Source: Spiroplasma chrysopicola DF-1 (GTDB lineage: Bacteria; Bacillota_I; Bacilli_A; Mycoplasmatales; Mycoplasmataceae). Taken from it: a stretch of 64,000 nucleotides of DNA. The stretch's first letter is position 1. Each line of letters opens with the position of its first letter. Of the stretch, positions 3,944 to 63,050 are shown one piece after another. Position numbers and translations under genes: made by a program. Under the pieces are notes generated by a model, which ran no database searches, had not been told where the DNA came from, and was given only the letters and a program-made list of their open reading frames with translations. Location: the NCBI RefSeq assembly GCF_000400935.1, contig NC_021280.1, positions 434,001 to 498,000 of the forward strand. The letters run 5' to 3'.

Positions 3944-5219
3944 TGAATATGTCAAGAAAAATAGACAATTAAAAAGTTACTTGAAGGGATGATTTTCTGT
4001 ATTGAACAGGACTCATTCCTTTTAATTTGGCTTGTGGTCTAAAATTATTGTAAAAATAGATATATTTAGGTAGATTTTCAATAATTCATTTGGCTGTTCG
4101 TTTTTTTCTTTTTATATGATATAAAAATTCAGTTTTCATAGTACCAAATCATGATTCTGTATGGGCATTATCATAAGAGTTTCCACATCTGGACATTGAA
4201 ATCGTAATTCCAAGATAATTGCATAATTTTTCATAATCAGAATTTGTATAATGAAAACCTTGATCTGATTGTAGAACTCAAGTTGATGGCTTTCCAGCTT
4301 TTACTCAAGAATTAATTATGTTTTTAAAGACAAATTCTTTTTCTAAATTATTACTGATTTGGTAGTCCAAAATTTCATTAGTATGAAAGTCTTTTACTAT
4401 TGATAAAAAATAGGTTTTGTCGCTTGTTAATAAATATGTTATGTCTGTTCCTATTTTTTGATTAATATCTGTGGTTGAAAAATCTTGATTCATGATATTT
4501 TCATGTCTTTTGTTACCAGAAGATAATTTATAATTAAATTTTTTTATTCTAATAATTGATTTTAAATTCATATTTTTCATATATCTATAGACAATATGAG
4601 GTTTTAAATTTCAATTATATAGTTTATTAATAATTAGTGTTAACATATTATATCCATAAATTTTCTTAAAAGTTAGAAATAACGTTTTAACTATTTTTGC
4701 AATTGTATTATTCCATTTATTAAAAAGTTTCATTCCAGCATTAAATCATTTATAATAACCAGCTCTAGAAACATTTAAAATTTTGCATAAATATTTAATC
4801 TTGTATTTTTTCTTTAAGGACCAAATCGTTTGAAATTTCTTCTTTTTCGATTTGGGCAAGGACTTTTTTACATCTTGAATCATTTCAATATACTCAATTA
4901 ATTCTTTTTTTGTCATTAATTCAAAATTAAGATTTTTTGGACGCCCTGGTCGGCGAATTCCTTTAGATTGTAGACCATTTCCTGGTTCTAACGCTTTTTC
5001 TCCACTAATTTTAACTGCCTTTTTTCAACGAGATAAAGTTGGTGTTGAAATTTCAAATTTTTTAATTGTTTTTGCTCAACCATTTTCTTTGTAATATTTT
5101 AAAATATTAAGTTTTTCGTTTTTTGTAAATCATTTTGTTCCCATAATAAAAGAATACCTTTCAATAAAATTATGACACATAAGTAACTTTTTATGTGTCT
5201 ATTTTATTTTAGGTATTCA
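3944..5219 (-). mobile_element. IS3-family (IS150-like) insertion sequence, copy 1
   Basis: 1276 bases, ends 5'-TG...CA-3'. The imperfect inverted repeats are about 39 bases: TGAATACCTAAAATAAAATA at one end and TGAATATGTCAAGAAAAATA at the other, both leading to AAAAAGTTACTT. It has the same length as copy 2 (30302-31577) and is nearly identical; in the stretches I compared I saw one difference, in the CGTCGACC/CGCCGACC codon. The flanks share only GC as a possible direct repeat, so no clean 3-bp target duplication is visible. The two copies lie in opposite orientation about 25 kb apart. Confidence 0.93.
3969..5144 (-). CDS. IS3-family transposase, single fused frame (copy 1)
   Basis: 391-residue transposase encoded as one continuous frame once UGA is read as Trp. 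An N-terminal helix-turn-helix (EKLNILKYYKENG to STPTLSRWKK) binds the IS ends. A charged helical stretch (ELIEYIEMIQDV) follows in the place of the usual leucine zipper. The C-terminal integrase-like catalytic domain carries D234 (GTDITYLL), D294 (LQSDQGFH) and E330 (AHTESWFG), spaced D-35-E as the IS3 family requires. IS3 relatives normally make this protein by -1 frameshifting between OrfA and OrfB; here no shift is needed. The protein looks intact, so the element may be active. The sequence matches copy 2 apart from a synonymous-looking CGC/CGT change at the one place I found a difference. Confidence 0.92.
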
Positions 5220-6751: not shown

Positions 6752-6788
6752 GAACTAGGATTTTATGCTAGTTTTTTTTTTTTTTTTT
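6752..6788 (+). terminator. Terminator with a 17-T tract
   Basis: Hairpin AACTAG-GATTTTATG-CTAGTT followed by an uninterrupted run of 17 T's (6772-6788). It ends the coiled-coil gene. Confidence 0.85.
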
Positions 6789-25040: not shown

Positions 25041-26825
25041 ATGCGAGAAAAAAAGCAAACAAAAAAATTTAGTTTAGCTGATTTTGTCTGACTAGGTTTC
25101 AACTATACCGTTTCAGTTGGGTTTATTGGTAATTTTGCTGTTTTGTCAAATGTTACATCAGACTCTGATCCAATTGGAATGCATGTTGTGTGAGTTTTCG
25201 CTGTGGAAGGATTAGTGGCGGGAATTTGTGCTTGAGCTTTTGCTAAAATGGCAAAAATTCATCAATCTAATAATAATGGTGCTGCTTACATTTATGTTCG
25301 AACATCATTTGGGAAATTTTGAGGAATTTTTGTTGCTTTTATGCAATATGTTTCATTACCATTTTTAATTACAATCCAAGTTATGATGCTAATTCGCGGT
25401 GCATTTGGCGTTGATTTTGTTGCCCAAGAGGTTAGCAAAGGGCATTATGTATTACCCTGGTATGCTGCCAACTGAGGTGCATTTGGTGATTTATGATTAG
25501 ATTTAATTGGAATTCTAATTTACATGTCAGCTTCGGCAATTATTTTTGGCGGAATGAAATTATATCGAAAATTGGCAAATGGGACAGGGATTGTTAAATG
25601 AGCAACAGCTGGTTTTTTAATTATTGCGGGTTTAGCATTAGCTTTTCAAAAAGGTCCAGAGAATTTATCTTATTGAGGTGAGAATAGCCATTTTTCCTTG
25701 CCGGGTTTTGTAAAAGCGTTTAATTCATGTTTCTTCTTTTTTGCTGGGTTTGAAACTTTTTCAACTGCGGGGAAAAATATTATTAATCCTGAAAAAAATA
25801 TTGGGCGTGGAATTACTCTAATTATGTTTATTAGCACAATTTTTTATATTGTTATTTCAATTATTTTCTTTGCTGCTTTTAACAGTTTTGTCCAAAATAT
25901 GAATATGGGGACATGAAATAGTTTTAATAATAAAGTAATTTTATATGGAGGGCCAATTATAATGATTATTTCCTCCTTTGCCCTCAAAGTAAATGTCGCA
26001 ATGCAAAATGCCCTATATGGTGGAACGTCAATCCAACCTATGGCAACAGAAGGTTATTTACCTGATCGATTTCGTAAACTGAATAAAGATGGTTTACCAG
26101 TTCGAGCATCAATTTTAAATTTATGCATCACTGTATTAATGATTTTTGTTTGATTAGCAATCCCGGATTTAATTAAGGGAATTTCATTATCATTAAAACA
26201 TGGGATGTTTCCAACAATTAATGATATTCTTGCGTATAAACAACCATTTAATATTTCCTCATTAACAGAAGCTGCTTCTGCGATAGTAATTTTTATTTAT
26301 GCAATGGTAATTGCCGTGACTTTAAAATTAGGATTTCAGAAAAAAATTAAAATCAAAATTTGAGAATGAATTGTTTTTCCGGTTGTGTTATTAGTTTTAG
26401 GATTTGTTTTTGGATGACATTATTATAGTTTAGTTAATGGTGTTATTACAAGTTCCCAAGATGATTTTCAAAGTAAATTAACGGGGGCAATTATTGAATT
26501 AGTCTTTATTATCAGTTCAGTTTCATTTGCAACAATTTGATACTTTACGTATTATCGTCGAAAATATCTACAAAGAATGCAAACAAATCCAGCTTTACAA
26601 GCAAAATTAGATAGTGAGTTTGTGATTAGTGATGATTTAAAATATGTCACAAAAGATCTACGTAATGAAGTTATTGAATATTTAAAACGAAATAAAGCAT
26701 TATCAAATGGACAAGAACCACCAAATGAGAATTATCAAACGGCCAAGGCATTACTTGATAACATTAATGGCATCTATGAAAATTTAGAAAAAAAAGAGCA
26801 AGAAAATGGAGAAAATGATGACTAG
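25041..26825 (+). CDS. APC-superfamily amino-acid permease
   Basis: 594 residues with about 12-14 predicted membrane spans. The start resembles APC transporters (SLADFVWLGFNYTVSVGFIG, with the unwound helix-1 glycines). The conserved helix-6 region is seen as FFFAGFETFSTAGKNIINPEKN, and ALYGGTSIQPMATEGYLPDRF is the typical loop after helix 8. A ~80-residue hydrophilic, acidic C-terminal tail ends the protein. The substrate is probably an amino acid but cannot be told. The gene has its own promoter region (TATAAT-type boxes at about 24925 and 24988) and a terminator, so it stands alone. Confidence 0.88.
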
Positions 26826-26942: not shown

Positions 26943-27003
26943 TTGATTTTTTTCTATTTTTGGTATATTATGGAGTTAATGTTAAATAAAAGTATTTAAC
27001 ATT
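26943..27003 (+). promoter_or_regulatory. Promoter and leader hairpin of the spiralin-like gene
   Basis: TTGATT (26943-26948), 17 bases, TATTAT (26966-26971). The transcript would begin just before a perfect 11-base-pair hairpin, AATGTTAAATA-AAAG-TATTTAACATT (26978-27003), ending 9 bases before the ribosome binding site AAGGAAGG. A 5' hairpin on an abundant surface-protein mRNA could protect it from decay; that role is inferred. Confidence 0.6.
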
Positions 27004-27024
27004 AGTAAGGAAGGAACAATTATT

Positions 27025-28044
27025 ATGAAGCGTTTATTAGCAATTTTAGGTGCGGTCGGTTTAACAGCAACTGGTTCAACAGCAGTAGTTGCATGTAGTA
27101 AATCGAGTGACACAACGAAAGCAAACGATTTATCAAAAATAAAAAGTTTTGAAGCGCCAACAGCCTTTAAAGCAAATGACTATACAACTGTAAAAGAAGC
27201 GGATGTTAAAAAAGCTTTAAAAAATAGTGTTTTAATCGAAGTTCAAAAACTTGTAAGCACTGCAACTGAAAGTGATTATACTTTTGGTGTTTATAATGAT
27301 GGAAGTGGTGGAGAATATGCTCCTGTTGATGTTTCAGAAAACAGTAAAAATGTTTATGTAAAAGTTAAAGCCGCAACTACTACAAAAACAGACCCTGTTC
27401 TTATCGGTGAAACAGGGTACATTAAGGTTACTTTACCAGCTGTACCAGACTTTGTTAAGGGAGATCTTTCAAAGGTTACAGTAATTGCACCAGCACCAGT
27501 TGAAGTAGCTGAAGACCCAAGTAAAGTTACAATGGATGAAGTTAAGGATGCTTTAAAAGATACTGTTTTAGCAGCAGTTAATAGTGTTGCTTTAGCAGCT
27601 GATGGTACAGATTTTACTTATAAAGTTTCTAGTGATGATCAAGGTGTAGAAACAAATCCAATTGATTTAACTACTGAATCACAACCTGTTTTTGTTAAAA
27701 TTACAGCAAAAACTGATAATGCACTTCTTGAGAAAGCAACAAATTTCATTAAGGTTACTTTACCAAGATTTAAATATGATTTAGGATTAAAAGAAATTGA
27801 GATTGAACCAGTAGAAGTTGTAAGAAGTGATAGTGTAGAGGCAGTTCCAAAAACACATGTTATGAATAGTTTAAAAGATAATGTTTTAACTGCAGTTAAA
27901 ACTGTTGTATCTACTGCAACCACAACAGATTATAAATTTGATATTTTTGCTGATGCCTTAGAAACACCTTATAAAGAGGTTGATATAACAACAAATGACC
28001 CTGTTGATCGAACAGTTTATGTTGAAATAACAGCAACAAAATAG
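27025..28044 (+). CDS. Spiralin-like repeat lipoprotein, N-terminal part (frame ends at a frameshift)
   Basis: 339 residues. The signal peptide (KRLLAILGAVGLTATGSTA) ends in lipobox VVAC. The mature part is made of spiralin-type repeats of about 110 residues: each has a DLSK/I-start, a helix with V-T-x-x-E-V-K-x-A-L-K, a middle strand (DYTFGVYND or DFTYKVSSD) and an end VYVK...GYIKVTLP. The string ETGYIKVTLP is, from memory, also found in S. citri spiralin, the main surface lipoprotein of that species. Two full repeats and most of a third are read before TAG TAG at 28042. The next frame continues the third repeat without a gap, so the gene has shifted by one base in the run AAAA at 28038-28041. 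No cysteine other than the lipid-anchor Cys is seen. Confidence 0.88.
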   Translation: MKRLLAILGAVGLTATGSTAVVACSKSSDTTKANDLSKIKSFEAPTAFKANDYTTVKEADVKKALKNSVLIEVQKLVSTATESDYTFGVYNDGSGGEYAPVDVSENSKNVYVKVKAATTTKTDPVLIGETGYIKVTLPAVPDFVKGDLSKVTVIAPAPVEVAEDPSKVTMDEVKDALKDTVLAAVNSVALAADGTDFTYKVSSDDQGVETNPIDLTTESQPVFVKITAKTDNALLEKATNFIKVTLPRFKYDLGLKEIEIEPVEVVRSDSVEAVPKTHVMNSLKDNVLTAVKTVVSTATTTDYKFDIFADALETPYKEVDITTNDPVDRTVYVEITATK

Positions 28045-28765
28045 TAGTGAAATTCTTAGAGGGACATCAGACCCTATTGAAGTAGTGCTTCCAAAAGAAC
28101 AAAGAAAAGATCTTATGACTCTTGGAGTTATTGCTGCTCCATCAATTTGGCCAAATGATCCAAAACACGTAACAGCGCAAGAAATTAAAAATGCATTAAA
28201 AAATAATGTTCAAACAGCAATTGAACAAATTCAACCCAAAGCAAAATTGAATGTTGACTATGATTTTACTGTTTCTCGTGATGATCATGGAGCAATAATA
28301 GATACACTTGATTTTACATCATCTATCGCTGCTAATCGAACAGTTTATGTTATAGTTAGATCACTTGATGATAGTGGTTATCTTAAAAATGTATCAAATG
28401 CTAAGGATGTAGTTTTTACACAAGATACAAGATCAGATATTAGTACAGTTGATACTATTGCTGCTCCATTAACTGTTCCTGCAGAAGATGGTAACGCAGT
28501 AACAGAAGCAGAAGTTCGTGCAGCATTAAACCCCAAAGTTGTTGATGCAGTTAACGCTCTTGATCCAACACCTAATGTAAGCATAAATGATTTAACTTAT
28601 GCTATCTACACAGATGAGCAAGCAGAAACAATTTTACCAGATACTATTGATTTAGTTGGTGATGCTTATCCAGTTTGAATAATAATTACAGCTGAGTCAA
28701 ATAACCAAAAAATTTGAGGAAAAACACAAACTCCTATTAATGTAATACTTCCAAAAATTGTTTAG
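28040..28765 (+). pseudogene. Spiralin-like lipoprotein, out-of-frame continuation (repeats 3-5)
   Basis: Reading on in the +1 frame from the AAAA run gives NSSEILRGTSDPIEVVLP, which completes repeat 3, then two more full spiralin repeats (starting DLMTLGVIAAPSIWPND and DISTVDTIAAPLTVPAED) and a normal end NVILPKIV before TAG at 28763. Without the extra A the whole gene (27025-28765) would encode about 579 residues with five tandem repeats. It has no start signal of its own. The reading frame is otherwise intact, with codon use like that of the first part, so the shift is recent, is a sequencing error, or is bypassed. Confidence 0.8.
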
Positions 28766-28824
28766 CATTAAAAAATTTTAATTTAATAACAAGTTCACAG
28801 TTTTAAATAACTGGGATTTTAAGT

Positions 28825-28868
28825 AAAAAATGCTTTCGCTTCATATTGAAATGAAAGCATTTTTAAAT
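28825..28868 (+). terminator. Terminator after the spiralin-like gene
   Basis: Hairpin AAAAAATGCTTTC ... GAAAGCATTTTT with a loop of about 15 bases, 60 bases after the final stop. Its position after repeat 5 supports the view that the whole 27025-28765 stretch is one gene. Confidence 0.82.
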
Positions 28869-29058
28869 TTAAAACCTTTTTTTATTTATTTCACATATGT
28901 AAATTGGATAATTATTTCGTATATCTTTTACTTCTAAAATGTTGTGTAATTAAAATTTACTGTTATTATTATGTTTATAAAATATTTTTATATTATATAT
29001 TTTTATTATTTACCATGATATGCTAAAATAATTTATGGAAGATATCAAGGGGGAAAAG

Positions 29059-29688
29059 ATGTTAGATCAGAAAGAAGTTCAAATTTTAGCAATTGCTGGG
29101 GGAACAGCAAGTGGTAAAACAACAGTTGCCAAAAAAATTGCCCATATTTTAAAAAATCAAAGAATTGTTTATTTAGCAATGGATAGTTATTATAAGTCAT
29201 TAGATAATCTGAGTTTAGTCGAACGGAAAAAAATTAATTTTGATCATCCCAATGCTATAGATTTAGATTTATTAATTTCACATTTAACTAGTTTAAAACA
29301 AGGAATGGATGTTTTACGACCAATTTATGATTTTACGCAAAATAATCGCTTAAAAGAAACCGAACTTGTTAAAGCAGGAGATGTGATTATTTTAGATGGG
29401 ATTTTGGCCTTAGCAATTGAAGAAATTCGCAAATTATCTAATATTAAAATATTTATTAAAACAGAAGATGATATTCGTTTTATTCGGCGTTTAACTCGTG
29501 ATATTGAGGAACGGGGACGAACTGTCCAGGATATTATTCATCAGTATTTAGCAACTGTTAAACCAATGTATGAATATTTTGTTGAACCAAGTATTAAATA
29601 TGCTGATATTATTGTTCCTTATTATGAAGGAAATGAAATCGCCATTGATATGATTGCCACAAAAGTCAAAAGTTTGTTAAAAAGATAA
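29059..29688 (+). CDS. udk: Uridine kinase
   Basis: 209 residues, phosphorylates uridine and cytidine to UMP and CMP in the pyrimidine salvage that mollicutes rely on. The P-loop is GGTASGKTT at 14-22. AMDSYYKSL, NFDHPNAIDLDLL and the lid RRLTRDIEERGRT, then QYLATVKPMYEYFVEPSIKYADIIVP, are all standard for Udk. The start at 29059 is chosen because AAGGGGGAA precedes it at the right distance; an in-frame ATG 24 bases upstream lacks such a site. greA follows after about 95 bases, the order seen in many Firmicutes. Confidence 0.95.
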   Translation: MLDQKEVQILAIAGGTASGKTTVAKKIAHILKNQRIVYLAMDSYYKSLDNLSLVERKKINFDHPNAIDLDLLISHLTSLKQGMDVLRPIYDFTQNNRLKETELVKAGDVIILDGILALAIEEIRKLSNIKIFIKTEDDIRFIRRLTRDIEERGRTVQDIIHQYLATVKPMYEYFVEPSIKYADIIVPYYEGNEIAIDMIATKVKSLLKR

Positions 29689-30301: not shown

Positions 30302-31577
30302 TGAATACCTAAAATAAAATAGACACATAAAAAGTTACTTATGTGTCATAATTTTATTGAAAGGTATTCTTTTATTATGGGAACAAAATGATTTACAAAA
30401 AACGAAAAACTTAATATTTTAAAATATTACAAAGAAAATGGTTGAGCAAAAACAATTAAAAAATTTGAAATTTCAACACCAACTTTATCTCGTTGAAAAA
30501 AGGCAGTTAAAATTAGTGGAGAAAAAGCGTTAGAACCAGGAAATGGTCTACAATCTAAAGGAATTCGTCGACCAGGGCGTCCAAAAAATCTTAATTTTGA
30601 ATTAATGACAAAAAAAGAATTAATTGAGTATATTGAAATGATTCAAGATGTAAAAAAGTCCTTGCCCAAATCGAAAAAGAAGAAATTTCAAACGATTTGG
30701 TCCTTAAAGAAAAAATACAAGATTAAATATTTATGCAAAATTTTAAATGTTTCTAGAGCTGGTTATTATAAATGATTTAATGCTGGAATGAAACTTTTTA
30801 ATAAATGGAATAATACAATTGCAAAAATAGTTAAAACGTTATTTCTAACTTTTAAGAAAATTTATGGATATAATATGTTAACACTAATTATTAATAAACT
30901 ATATAATTGAAATTTAAAACCTCATATTGTCTATAGATATATGAAAAATATGAATTTAAAATCAATTATTAGAATAAAAAAATTTAATTATAAATTATCT
31001 TCTGGTAACAAAAGACATGAAAATATCATGAATCAAGATTTTTCAACCACAGATATTAATCAAAAAATAGGAACAGACATAACATATTTATTAACAAGCG
31101 ACAAAACCTATTTTTTATCAATAGTAAAAGACTTTCATACTAATGAAATTTTGGACTACCAAATCAGTAATAATTTAGAAAAAGAATTTGTCTTTAAAAA
31201 CATAATTAATTCTTGAGTAAAAGCTGGAAAGCCATCAACTTGAGTTCTACAATCAGATCAAGGTTTTCATTATACAAATTCTGATTATGAAAAATTATGC
31301 AATTATCTTGGAATTACGATTTCAATGTCCAGACGTGGAAACTCTTATGATAATGCCCATACAGAATCATGATTTGGTACTATGAAAACTGAATTTTTAT
31401 ATCATATAAAAAGAAAAAAACGAACAGCCAAATGAATTATTGAAAATCTACCTAAATATATCTATTTTTACAATAATTTTAGACCACAAGCCAAATTAAA
31501 AGGAATGAGTCCTGTTCAATACAGAAAATCATCCCTTCAAGTAACTTTTTAATTGTCTATTTTTCTTGACATATTCA
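30302..31577 (+). mobile_element. IS3-family (IS150-like) insertion sequence, copy 2
   Basis: 1276 bases bounded by TGAATACC... and ...GACATATTCA with about 39-base imperfect inverted repeats. It is flanked by a 3-bp direct repeat TAA (30299-30301 and 31578-31580), the size expected for the IS150 group. It is nearly identical to copy 1 at 3944-5219 but on the other strand. It was inserted in the loop of the greA terminator. Intact ends, an intact transposase and a clean target repeat suggest recent movement. Confidence 0.95.
30377..31552 (+). CDS. IS3-family transposase, single fused frame (copy 2)
   Basis: 391 residues in one frame with UGA as Trp. It has an N-terminal helix-turn-helix (to about residue 45), a basic linker (GIRRPGRPKN), a charged helix, the RAGYYKWF motif typical for the start of IS3 OrfB, and an rve-type catalytic core with D234, D294 and E330. 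Only the last part of the core contains long stretches without UGA, so under the standard code it looks broken. The ATG follows GAAAGG. No OrfA stop or slippery overlap is found between the two usual halves, so the OrfAB protein is the direct translation product. Confidence 0.93.
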
Positions 31578-33919: not shown

Positions 33920-33935
33920 AAAAAAAAAAAAAAAA
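33920..33935 (+). repeat. 16-A homopolymer in the leader of the YitT-like gene
   Basis: An unbroken run of 16 A's lies 20 bases before the start codon at 33956 and just upstream of the ribosome binding site TGGAGATAG. A TATACT box is found at about 33893. The run would lie in the 5' leader and can change length by slippage. Confidence 0.8.
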
Positions 33936-41303: not shown

Positions 41304-41340
41304 TAACTTTTAAACAATCTAATTTATCAAACTTTTTCAT

Positions 41341-41356
41341 TTTTTTTTTTTTTTTT
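41341..41356 (+). repeat. 16-T homopolymer upstream of a lipoprotein gene
   Basis: 16 uninterrupted T's, 38 bases after yqeH and about 118 bases before the lipoprotein start at 41474. A TATAAT box (TTTATAATAATTA, about 41399-41411) lies between. The run could serve as the U-tract of a weak terminator or alter promoter strength by slippage. Confidence 0.7.
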
Positions 41357-51268: not shown

Positions 51269-51545
51269 ATTACTTAAATTTTATTTATTAATAAATAAGA
51301 TTTTTATATTTTTCAATAAAACTAAAACTTATCATAATTTACCAAATAATTTGTCTAAAAAATACTTATTAAGCTTTTTTTTTTTTTTTTTCAAGGAATA
51401 CTGTATAATTAAAGATAGTTATTTATTTTTTTATTGTATCATTTGGAGGTGAATTGAATATGGAAAACAAAGTGCAAGTTTTTTTTGATAGCATGTGCAA
51501 TAGTTGTCAGTATAAGTTTAAAAAAGTTATTAGCGTTGCTAAAAA
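51160..51545 (+). repeat. Segmental duplication, copy 1 (partner 62661-63050)
   Basis: From AATGCTC(T/C)TGATGTTAAATA through the relic membrane segment, the T-tract, the promoter and the first ~90 bases of the surface-family gene, this stretch is highly similar to 62661-63050. The match includes non-coding DNA, so it is a true segmental duplication rather than only protein similarity. Confidence 0.85.
51375..51409 (+). promoter_or_regulatory. Promoter with a 17-T tract (surface-family gene A)
   Basis: 17 T's (51375-51391) followed by CAAGGAATACTG and TATAAT at 51404-51409. A -35 box at normal spacing would fall inside the T run, so length change by slippage would alter promoter geometry. Confidence 0.6.
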
Positions 51546-62660: not shown

Positions 62661-63050
62661 AAATGCTCCTGATGTTAAATATTAACATAAAAAACTATCA
62701 TAATTATTACCAATGTTAGGTTTGAAAATATTTCTAACCTGGCTTATTATTTGCTGTCGTAAAAAATAGAGAATTATTTAAATTTTATTTATTAATAAAT
62801 AAGATTTTTATATTTTTCAATAAAACTAAAATTTATCATAATTTACCAAATAATTTGTCTAAAAAATACTTATTAAGTTTTTTTTTTTTTTTTTCAAGGA
62901 ATACTGTATAATTAAAAATAGTTATTTATTCTTTTATTGTATTTTTTGGAGGTGAATTGAATATGGAAAACAAAGTGCAGCGTTTTTTTGCTAGCATGTG
63001 TAATAGTTGTCAGTATCAATTTAAAAAAGTTATTAGCGTTGTTAAAAAGA
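62661..63050 (+). repeat. Segmental duplication, copy 2 (partner 51160-51545)
   Basis: It contains the same relic: here the frame reads MLGLKIFLTWLIICCRKK before a stop, matching the membrane segment at about 51215-51260. The same AT-rich stretch, a 17-T tract (62878-62894), CAAGGAATACTGTATAATTA (-10 at about 62907) and GGAGGTG before the gene start follow. 62572-62660 holds only AT-rich sequence after the permease gene. Confidence 0.85.

Follow-up and report, generated by a model that had tools for sequence, protein, structure and literature searches.

The lipoprotein gene at the spiralin locus of Spiroplasma chrysopicola DF-1 (27025-28765) consists of five Spiralin (PF05215) domains that are spread over two reading frames. 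The best explanation for this arrangement, and a probable one in our judgement, is that a recent single-base indel truncated a five-domain gene. Spiroplasma chrysopicola is a bacterium from a deerfly, and spiralin, an abundant surface lipoprotein with lectin activity, forms the coat of spiroplasma cells and mediates insect contact in S. citri. According to the summary of Duret 2003 given in PMC4804543, S. citri does not require its spiralin for helicity, motility or pathogenicity, although efficient insect transmission does depend on it. The DNA analysed here, referred to as the window, is a 64,000-nt stretch (positions 434,001 to 498,000) of the single-contig S. chrysopicola genome of 1,123,322 bp. 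Its nearest relative among the compared genomes is S. syrphidicola EA-1 (1,107,344 bases); the two species are 92.2% identical and almost collinear (PMC5091035).

Structure of the spiralin-locus gene

The sequence itself, its translation under code 4, the Pfam search and a domain HMM of 99 positions, which was trained on the seed repeats together with 108 Spiroplasma domains, all agree with the description given in an earlier note on this DNA, namely a five-repeat spiralin-like gene that is broken at AAAA and ends in TAG TAG (Table 1). Pfam Spiralin was detected in three stretches of the frame-0 half (E 4.8e-10, 40.3 bits) and in two stretches of the +1 half (E 1.8e-8, 35.2 bits), with a cut-off of 25. 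The translation begins with a signal peptide that has a Cys lipobox (MKRLLAILGAVGLTATGSTAVVAC). At the other end of the gene, domain 5 is complete and is followed by a strong hairpin with a T run, so that the normal end and terminator that had been proposed after repeat 5 were also found. The five repeats are mutually divergent (about 30-37% protein identity to repeat 2) and are therefore not a fresh tandem duplication. In addition, an inverted repeat lies directly 5' of the ribosome-binding site and has a near-identical stretch in S. syrphidicola; it is possibly an mRNA-stability or regulatory element.

Table 1. Features at and around the spiralin-locus gene of S. chrysopicola DF-1 (window positions unless a contig is named)
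Feature	Position	Strand	Details
Amino-acid permease, upstream neighbour	25041-26825		name read from sequence
Inverted repeat, 5' leader	26976..27005	+	perfect 13-bp stem, 4-nt loop; -9.4 kcal/mol, z -2.4
Ribosome-binding site AAGGAAGGA	27007..27015	+	read in sequence; conserved in S. syrphidicola
Frame-0 ORF, ATG 27025, 339 aa	27025..28044	+	truncated spiralin-like lipoprotein, 2 full + 1 incomplete domain
Lipoprotein signal peptide, lipobox VVA-C, Cys24	27025..27096	+	from translation; DNA 88-100% identical to S. syrphidicola
Spiralin domain 1	27157..27438	+	HMM positions 2-99 of 99, E 9.7e-20
Spiralin domain 2	27508..27765	+	HMM positions 7-99, E 2.2e-20
Spiralin domain 3, last strand absent in frame 0	27826..28041	+	HMM positions 7-81 of 99, E 1.2e-10
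Frame break: A4 run, then in-frame TAG TAG	28038..28047	+	sequence and translation
+1-frame part: rest of domain 3, then domains 4-5	28040..28765	+	241 open codons, then TAG 28763-28765
Spiralin domain 4	28142..28411	+ (+1 frame)	HMM positions 4-96, E 5.6e-16
Spiralin domain 5	28469..28753	+ (+1 frame)	HMM positions 3-99, E 5.9e-17; natural domain end reached
Intrinsic terminator hairpin and T run	28825..28864	+	after +1-frame end; fold of 28780-28880 -25.8 kcal/mol, z -5.7
Uridine kinase (udk), downstream neighbour	29035-29688		name read from sequence
Poly-T tracts	51375-51391, 62878-62894; G000:C1 near 525.1, 578.0, 686.1, 797.5 kb		L139-L144

The frame break and what it removes

Frame 0 ends ACA AAA TAG TAG, with the two stops (28042-28047) directly after the AAAA of 28038-28041. 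Read from 28040, the +1 frame gives NSSEILRGTSDPIEVVLPK..., which is the missing end of repeat 3 and joins without a gap; the HMM match to domain 3 stops at position 81, exactly at the break. The claim that the +1 frame carries the rest of repeat 3 together with repeats 4 and 5 was thus borne out, the frame being open up to its TAG and containing recognizable Spiralin domains. None of 20,000 dinucleotide-Markov sequences of the length of the tail (723 nt) was open, and the remaining two frames of the tail contain 15 and 43 stops. Codon usage is that of coding DNA only in the two frames given here (0.507 and 0.425 bits/codon), the others scoring -1.1 to -1.45.

An AlphaFold model of repeat 2, with the other repeats supplied as the alignment, consists of a long helix and the strands E51-56, E74-82 and E96-100 (pLDDT 85). 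A Foldseek search of the Spiralin domain against the PDB returned no significant match. Judged by the model, the frame-0 product would stop just past the second strand of domain 3, with the loss of the third strand and of domains 4-5. The predicted product of 339 aa would amount to 2.8 domains and still be longer than an ordinary two-domain spiralin. With two full domains and one cut domain, it departs from the length of classical two-domain spiralin (~240 aa), a measure that describes classical spiralin and not the whole domain family, in which multi-domain members exist. Since ordinary Spiroplasma spiralins carry two domains, there is no obvious reason to regard the short product as useless.

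The locus in the sister species and other relatives

The spiralin-locus gene of S. syrphidicola (G013:C1:461659-462408) occupies the same place and is intact, encoding a two-domain protein of 249 aa. The two genes have position, leader and signal peptide in common, whereas the gene of S. syrphidicola has only two domains and is unbroken. DNA identity between the two species stands at ~90% as far as the signal peptide and at only ~50-65% over domains 1-2, and it exceeds 90% again at 29000; beyond ~27800 the alignment vanishes. The best genus-wide matches of the gene are two-domain spiralins, and the genome searches turned up repeats 4-5 in none of the relatives. The statement of the earlier note that S. 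citri spiralin has far fewer repeats is in line with these results, two domains being the rule in relatives.

In two other genomes (G009 and G010), the permease adjoins udk with no spiralin in between, and in a Citri-type genome (locus L018) spiralin lies upstream of pfkA-pyk. Therefore, the spiralin locus appears to have been relocated in the Chrysopicola clade. The udk gene is intact in this clade, and only fragment matches to it were seen in four further Spiroplasma genomes (G001, G012, G007 and G003; L084-L087). An IS3-like transposase of 403 aa (rve, HTH_21) is present in two copies in the window, at 3969-5180 (-) and 30341-31552 (+); both are missing from the collinear S. syrphidicola stretch, and one lies ~1.6 kb downstream of the spiralin gene.

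Compared with the spiralin of S. citri and its relatives (PF05215), the S. chrysopicola gene shares the lipobox signal peptide, the Spiralin domains and the occurrence as a single gene at the locus, but it differs in having five domains instead of two, in being broken in domain 3, and in lying at the permease-udk site instead of the pfkA-pyk site. Multi-domain Spiralin architecture is normal in the S. chrysopicola genome, since three intact genes (L062, 924 aa; L071, 542 aa; L072, 628 aa) contain 6, 5 and 6 tandem Spiralin domains, respectively, without a break. The repeats of L071 and L072 are near-identical copies, in contrast to the about 30-37% identity seen at the spiralin locus. These two genes (L071 1076-2704 and L072 2109-3995 (- strand)) encode lipoproteins, and their repeat arrays could alter in length by recombination.

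The spiralin locus has diverged sharply between sister species in which the flanks are ~90% identical or more, by gain of domains and then, apparently, by loss of the tail. This represents a fast turnover of a major surface protein in a clade that has otherwise been called genomically static. The frame break is ordinary in kind, and the modest interest of the locus lies in its rapid remodelling.

Proposed course and age of the truncation

The mature part of the gene was rebuilt in the S. chrysopicola lineage into five tandem Spiralin domains. In the course of events that we propose, a single-base length change near 28038-28041 would then have broken the continuous frame; the broken frame is the state of the sequence, and the mutation is what we infer from it. 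Transcription presumably continues to the terminator, while translation would halt at the TAG at 28042. The predicted product is a lipid-anchored protein of 339 aa in which domains 1 and 2 are complete and domain 3 is without its last strand. Domains 4-5, which have neither a signal peptide nor a start of their own, would not be made. As the signal peptide and lipobox are intact, the cell probably still exports and anchors the short protein. It would also be longer than the usual two-domain spiralin, suggesting that the loss of the tail is likely to be tolerable, at least in culture.

Several features of the tail bear on the age of the break. Divergence at fourfold sites between S. chrysopicola and S. 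syrphidicola is d ~0.41 (3,584 sites), or ~0.2 per lineage. In a simulation of a neutrally evolving tail, which took substitutions only and in which indels would shorten the estimates further, the first in-frame stop appeared at a median of 0.020 substitutions/site, and 95% of the runs had acquired one by 0.089. The actual tail shows no decay: it has 0 stops in 241 codons, and its codon usage is still coding-like. If the break is real and inactivating, the lack of stops indicates that it is young, well under half of the lineage age. It is then far younger than the divergence from S. syrphidicola and may be very recent. An old, decayed pseudogene was rejected as a description of the locus, as there are no later stops or indels in the 241 codons, unlike in a many-stop pseudogene found elsewhere in S. 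chrysopicola.

Mutation, error or expression switch

The earlier note had offered a recent mutation, an assembly error and a slippage switch. Among these, the recent mutation is best supported, by the lack of decay, the intact sister gene and the clean break, although A4 is an unremarkable site for an indel, the 15 longer A runs of the same gene are unbroken, and a clean break also resembles an error. Only one genome of the species was compared, and in a single genome a fixed mutation, an assembly error and a minority state look alike. We favour an ordinary mutation over a sequencing slip. A sequencing or assembly error, in which case the real gene would run in one frame and encode an intact five-domain spiralin, is less likely, yet its chance is appreciable. 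An error would leave a perfectly clean break and a tail without decay, as are seen here, and in a published survey sequencing errors were expected to account for many of the singleton frame transitions (PMC3711429). The assembly of the sister species, which has been attributed to the same study as that of S. chrysopicola (PMC5091035), has two genes with a clean frame break in the ~165 kb compared, which means that this pair of assemblies does contain indel errors or else fresh indels. In contrast, S. chrysopicola has 0 clean breaks in ~163 kb (181 orthologues in four stretches): only one of the 181 S. syrphidicola ORFs is broken by S. chrysopicola DNA, and that one is the many-stop decayed pseudogene. 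The S. chrysopicola assembly is therefore not generally frame-broken. Furthermore, homopolymer miscalls should favour A5-A6 runs, and all 15 of these in the gene are fine. The published genome (CP005077) is also a complete one, in which only 6 pseudogenes were annotated (PMC4607517).

It is unlikely that this gene yields two spiralins, one of 2.8 domains and one of five, whether through DNA slippage or through +1 recoding at AAAA-TAG. Slippage climbs steeply with run length, which makes a switch at an A4 odd while longer runs are stable; the gene contains 13 A4, 11 A5 and 4 A6 runs, and the longer ones would switch more often. A run at 28038-28041 that varied reversibly in length between cells, giving a short or a long surface protein, would suit a surface lipoprotein with both frames open, and mollicutes do have poly-A frameshift switches, such as that of Mycoplasma hominis vaa with 7, 8 or 9 A (PMC524362). 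We consider it improbable all the same: A4 runs number 642 in the window, the one at the break is below the 7-base minimum applied to phase-variation tracts in the published survey (PMC3711429), truly long tracts are available in the genome (15-17 T at six promoters), and the break is absent from every relative. The commonness of A4, the unbroken longer runs, the lack of a relative with the break and the lack of a recoding signal together speak against this part of the earlier note. Some full-length protein could also arise by programmed +1 ribosomal frameshifting at a shifty stop, for which an AAA-TAR-type motif is used in Euplotes. The site does read AAA TAG and the +1 frame of the tail is preserved, but AAA TAA ends 4 of 32 ordinary genes of the window. 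AAA before a stop is thus a common ordinary gene end, and we reject Euplotes-type recoding on this ground. No stimulatory RNA structure was found downstream of the break (fold z 0.67), and neither an upstream Shine-Dalgarno-like stimulator nor a -1 slippery heptamer was seen in the sequence at the break. In addition, the site is conserved in no relative, and the S. syrphidicola gene, lying in one frame, needs no shift. Frameshifting of this kind is accordingly very improbable. Least credible of all is a pair of genes, the tail being a separate product of reinitiation: a GTG does occur in the tail frame at 28085, 41 bases past the stop, but no ribosome-binding site is evident before it, and the tail begins in the middle of domain 3 without a signal peptide.

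Close parallels come from Mycoplasma hominis, in which vmp-2 is a precedent for the truncation. In this gene, a poly-A tract towards the 3' end has gained one A, which truncates the protein while the frame continues to the terminator (PMC524362). The S. chrysopicola gene resembles vmp-2 as a membrane protein gene that is cut near its 3' part and keeps the remaining frame to the terminator, but the tract of vmp-2 has 9 A and a full-length sister allele is available, whereas S. chrysopicola has A4 and is represented by one strain. The adhesin gene vaa is likewise a surface protein gene with a poly-A frameshift, but its 8-A tract lies at the 5' end and exerts ON/OFF control at a reported frequency (PMC524362), in contrast to the mid-gene A4 of S. 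chrysopicola.

Other frame breaks and long homopolymers

A check for recurrence at poly-A sites among the spiralin-like genes of the genus revealed no break at an A4 site and no orthologous break. In S. eriocheiris, a spiralin-like lipoprotein gene (G002:C1:458821-459692; L068 3822-4693) shifts frame at GAA AAA AAG. This site is a canonical A_AAA_AAG -1 slippery heptamer (A7), and the downstream Spiralin domain is open in the -1 frame; no downstream RNA structure was found at the shift site. This break would be the result of an indel in the A run or of programmed frameshifting. One further genome (G005) contains degraded, frame-broken spiralin-like copies. Judging from these sequences, frame loss recurs in the spiralin family at differing sites, and since none of the sites is A4 or orthologous, a shared mechanism is not indicated. 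The two clean breaks in S. syrphidicola lie near G013:C1:326675 and G013:C1:335785 in genes that are otherwise conserved; one of them is at an A7 run in the gene for a 492-aa protein that is 98% identical, and they represent either fresh indels or sequencing errors.

Six paralogues of S. chrysopicola, the products of which begin with MNMENKVQVFFDSMCNSCQYKFKKV..., have a poly-T tract of 15-17 bases immediately 5' of CAAGGAATACTGTATAAT or a closely similar sequence (a TATAAT-like box), ~60 bases upstream of the start. Because the poly-T sits where promoter spacing would vary, these tracts are candidate phase-variable promoters. No match was found in S. syrphidicola, G009 or G010. Further long homopolymers in the window, one A16 and two T17, are located at 33920-33935, 6772-6788 and 41340-41356.
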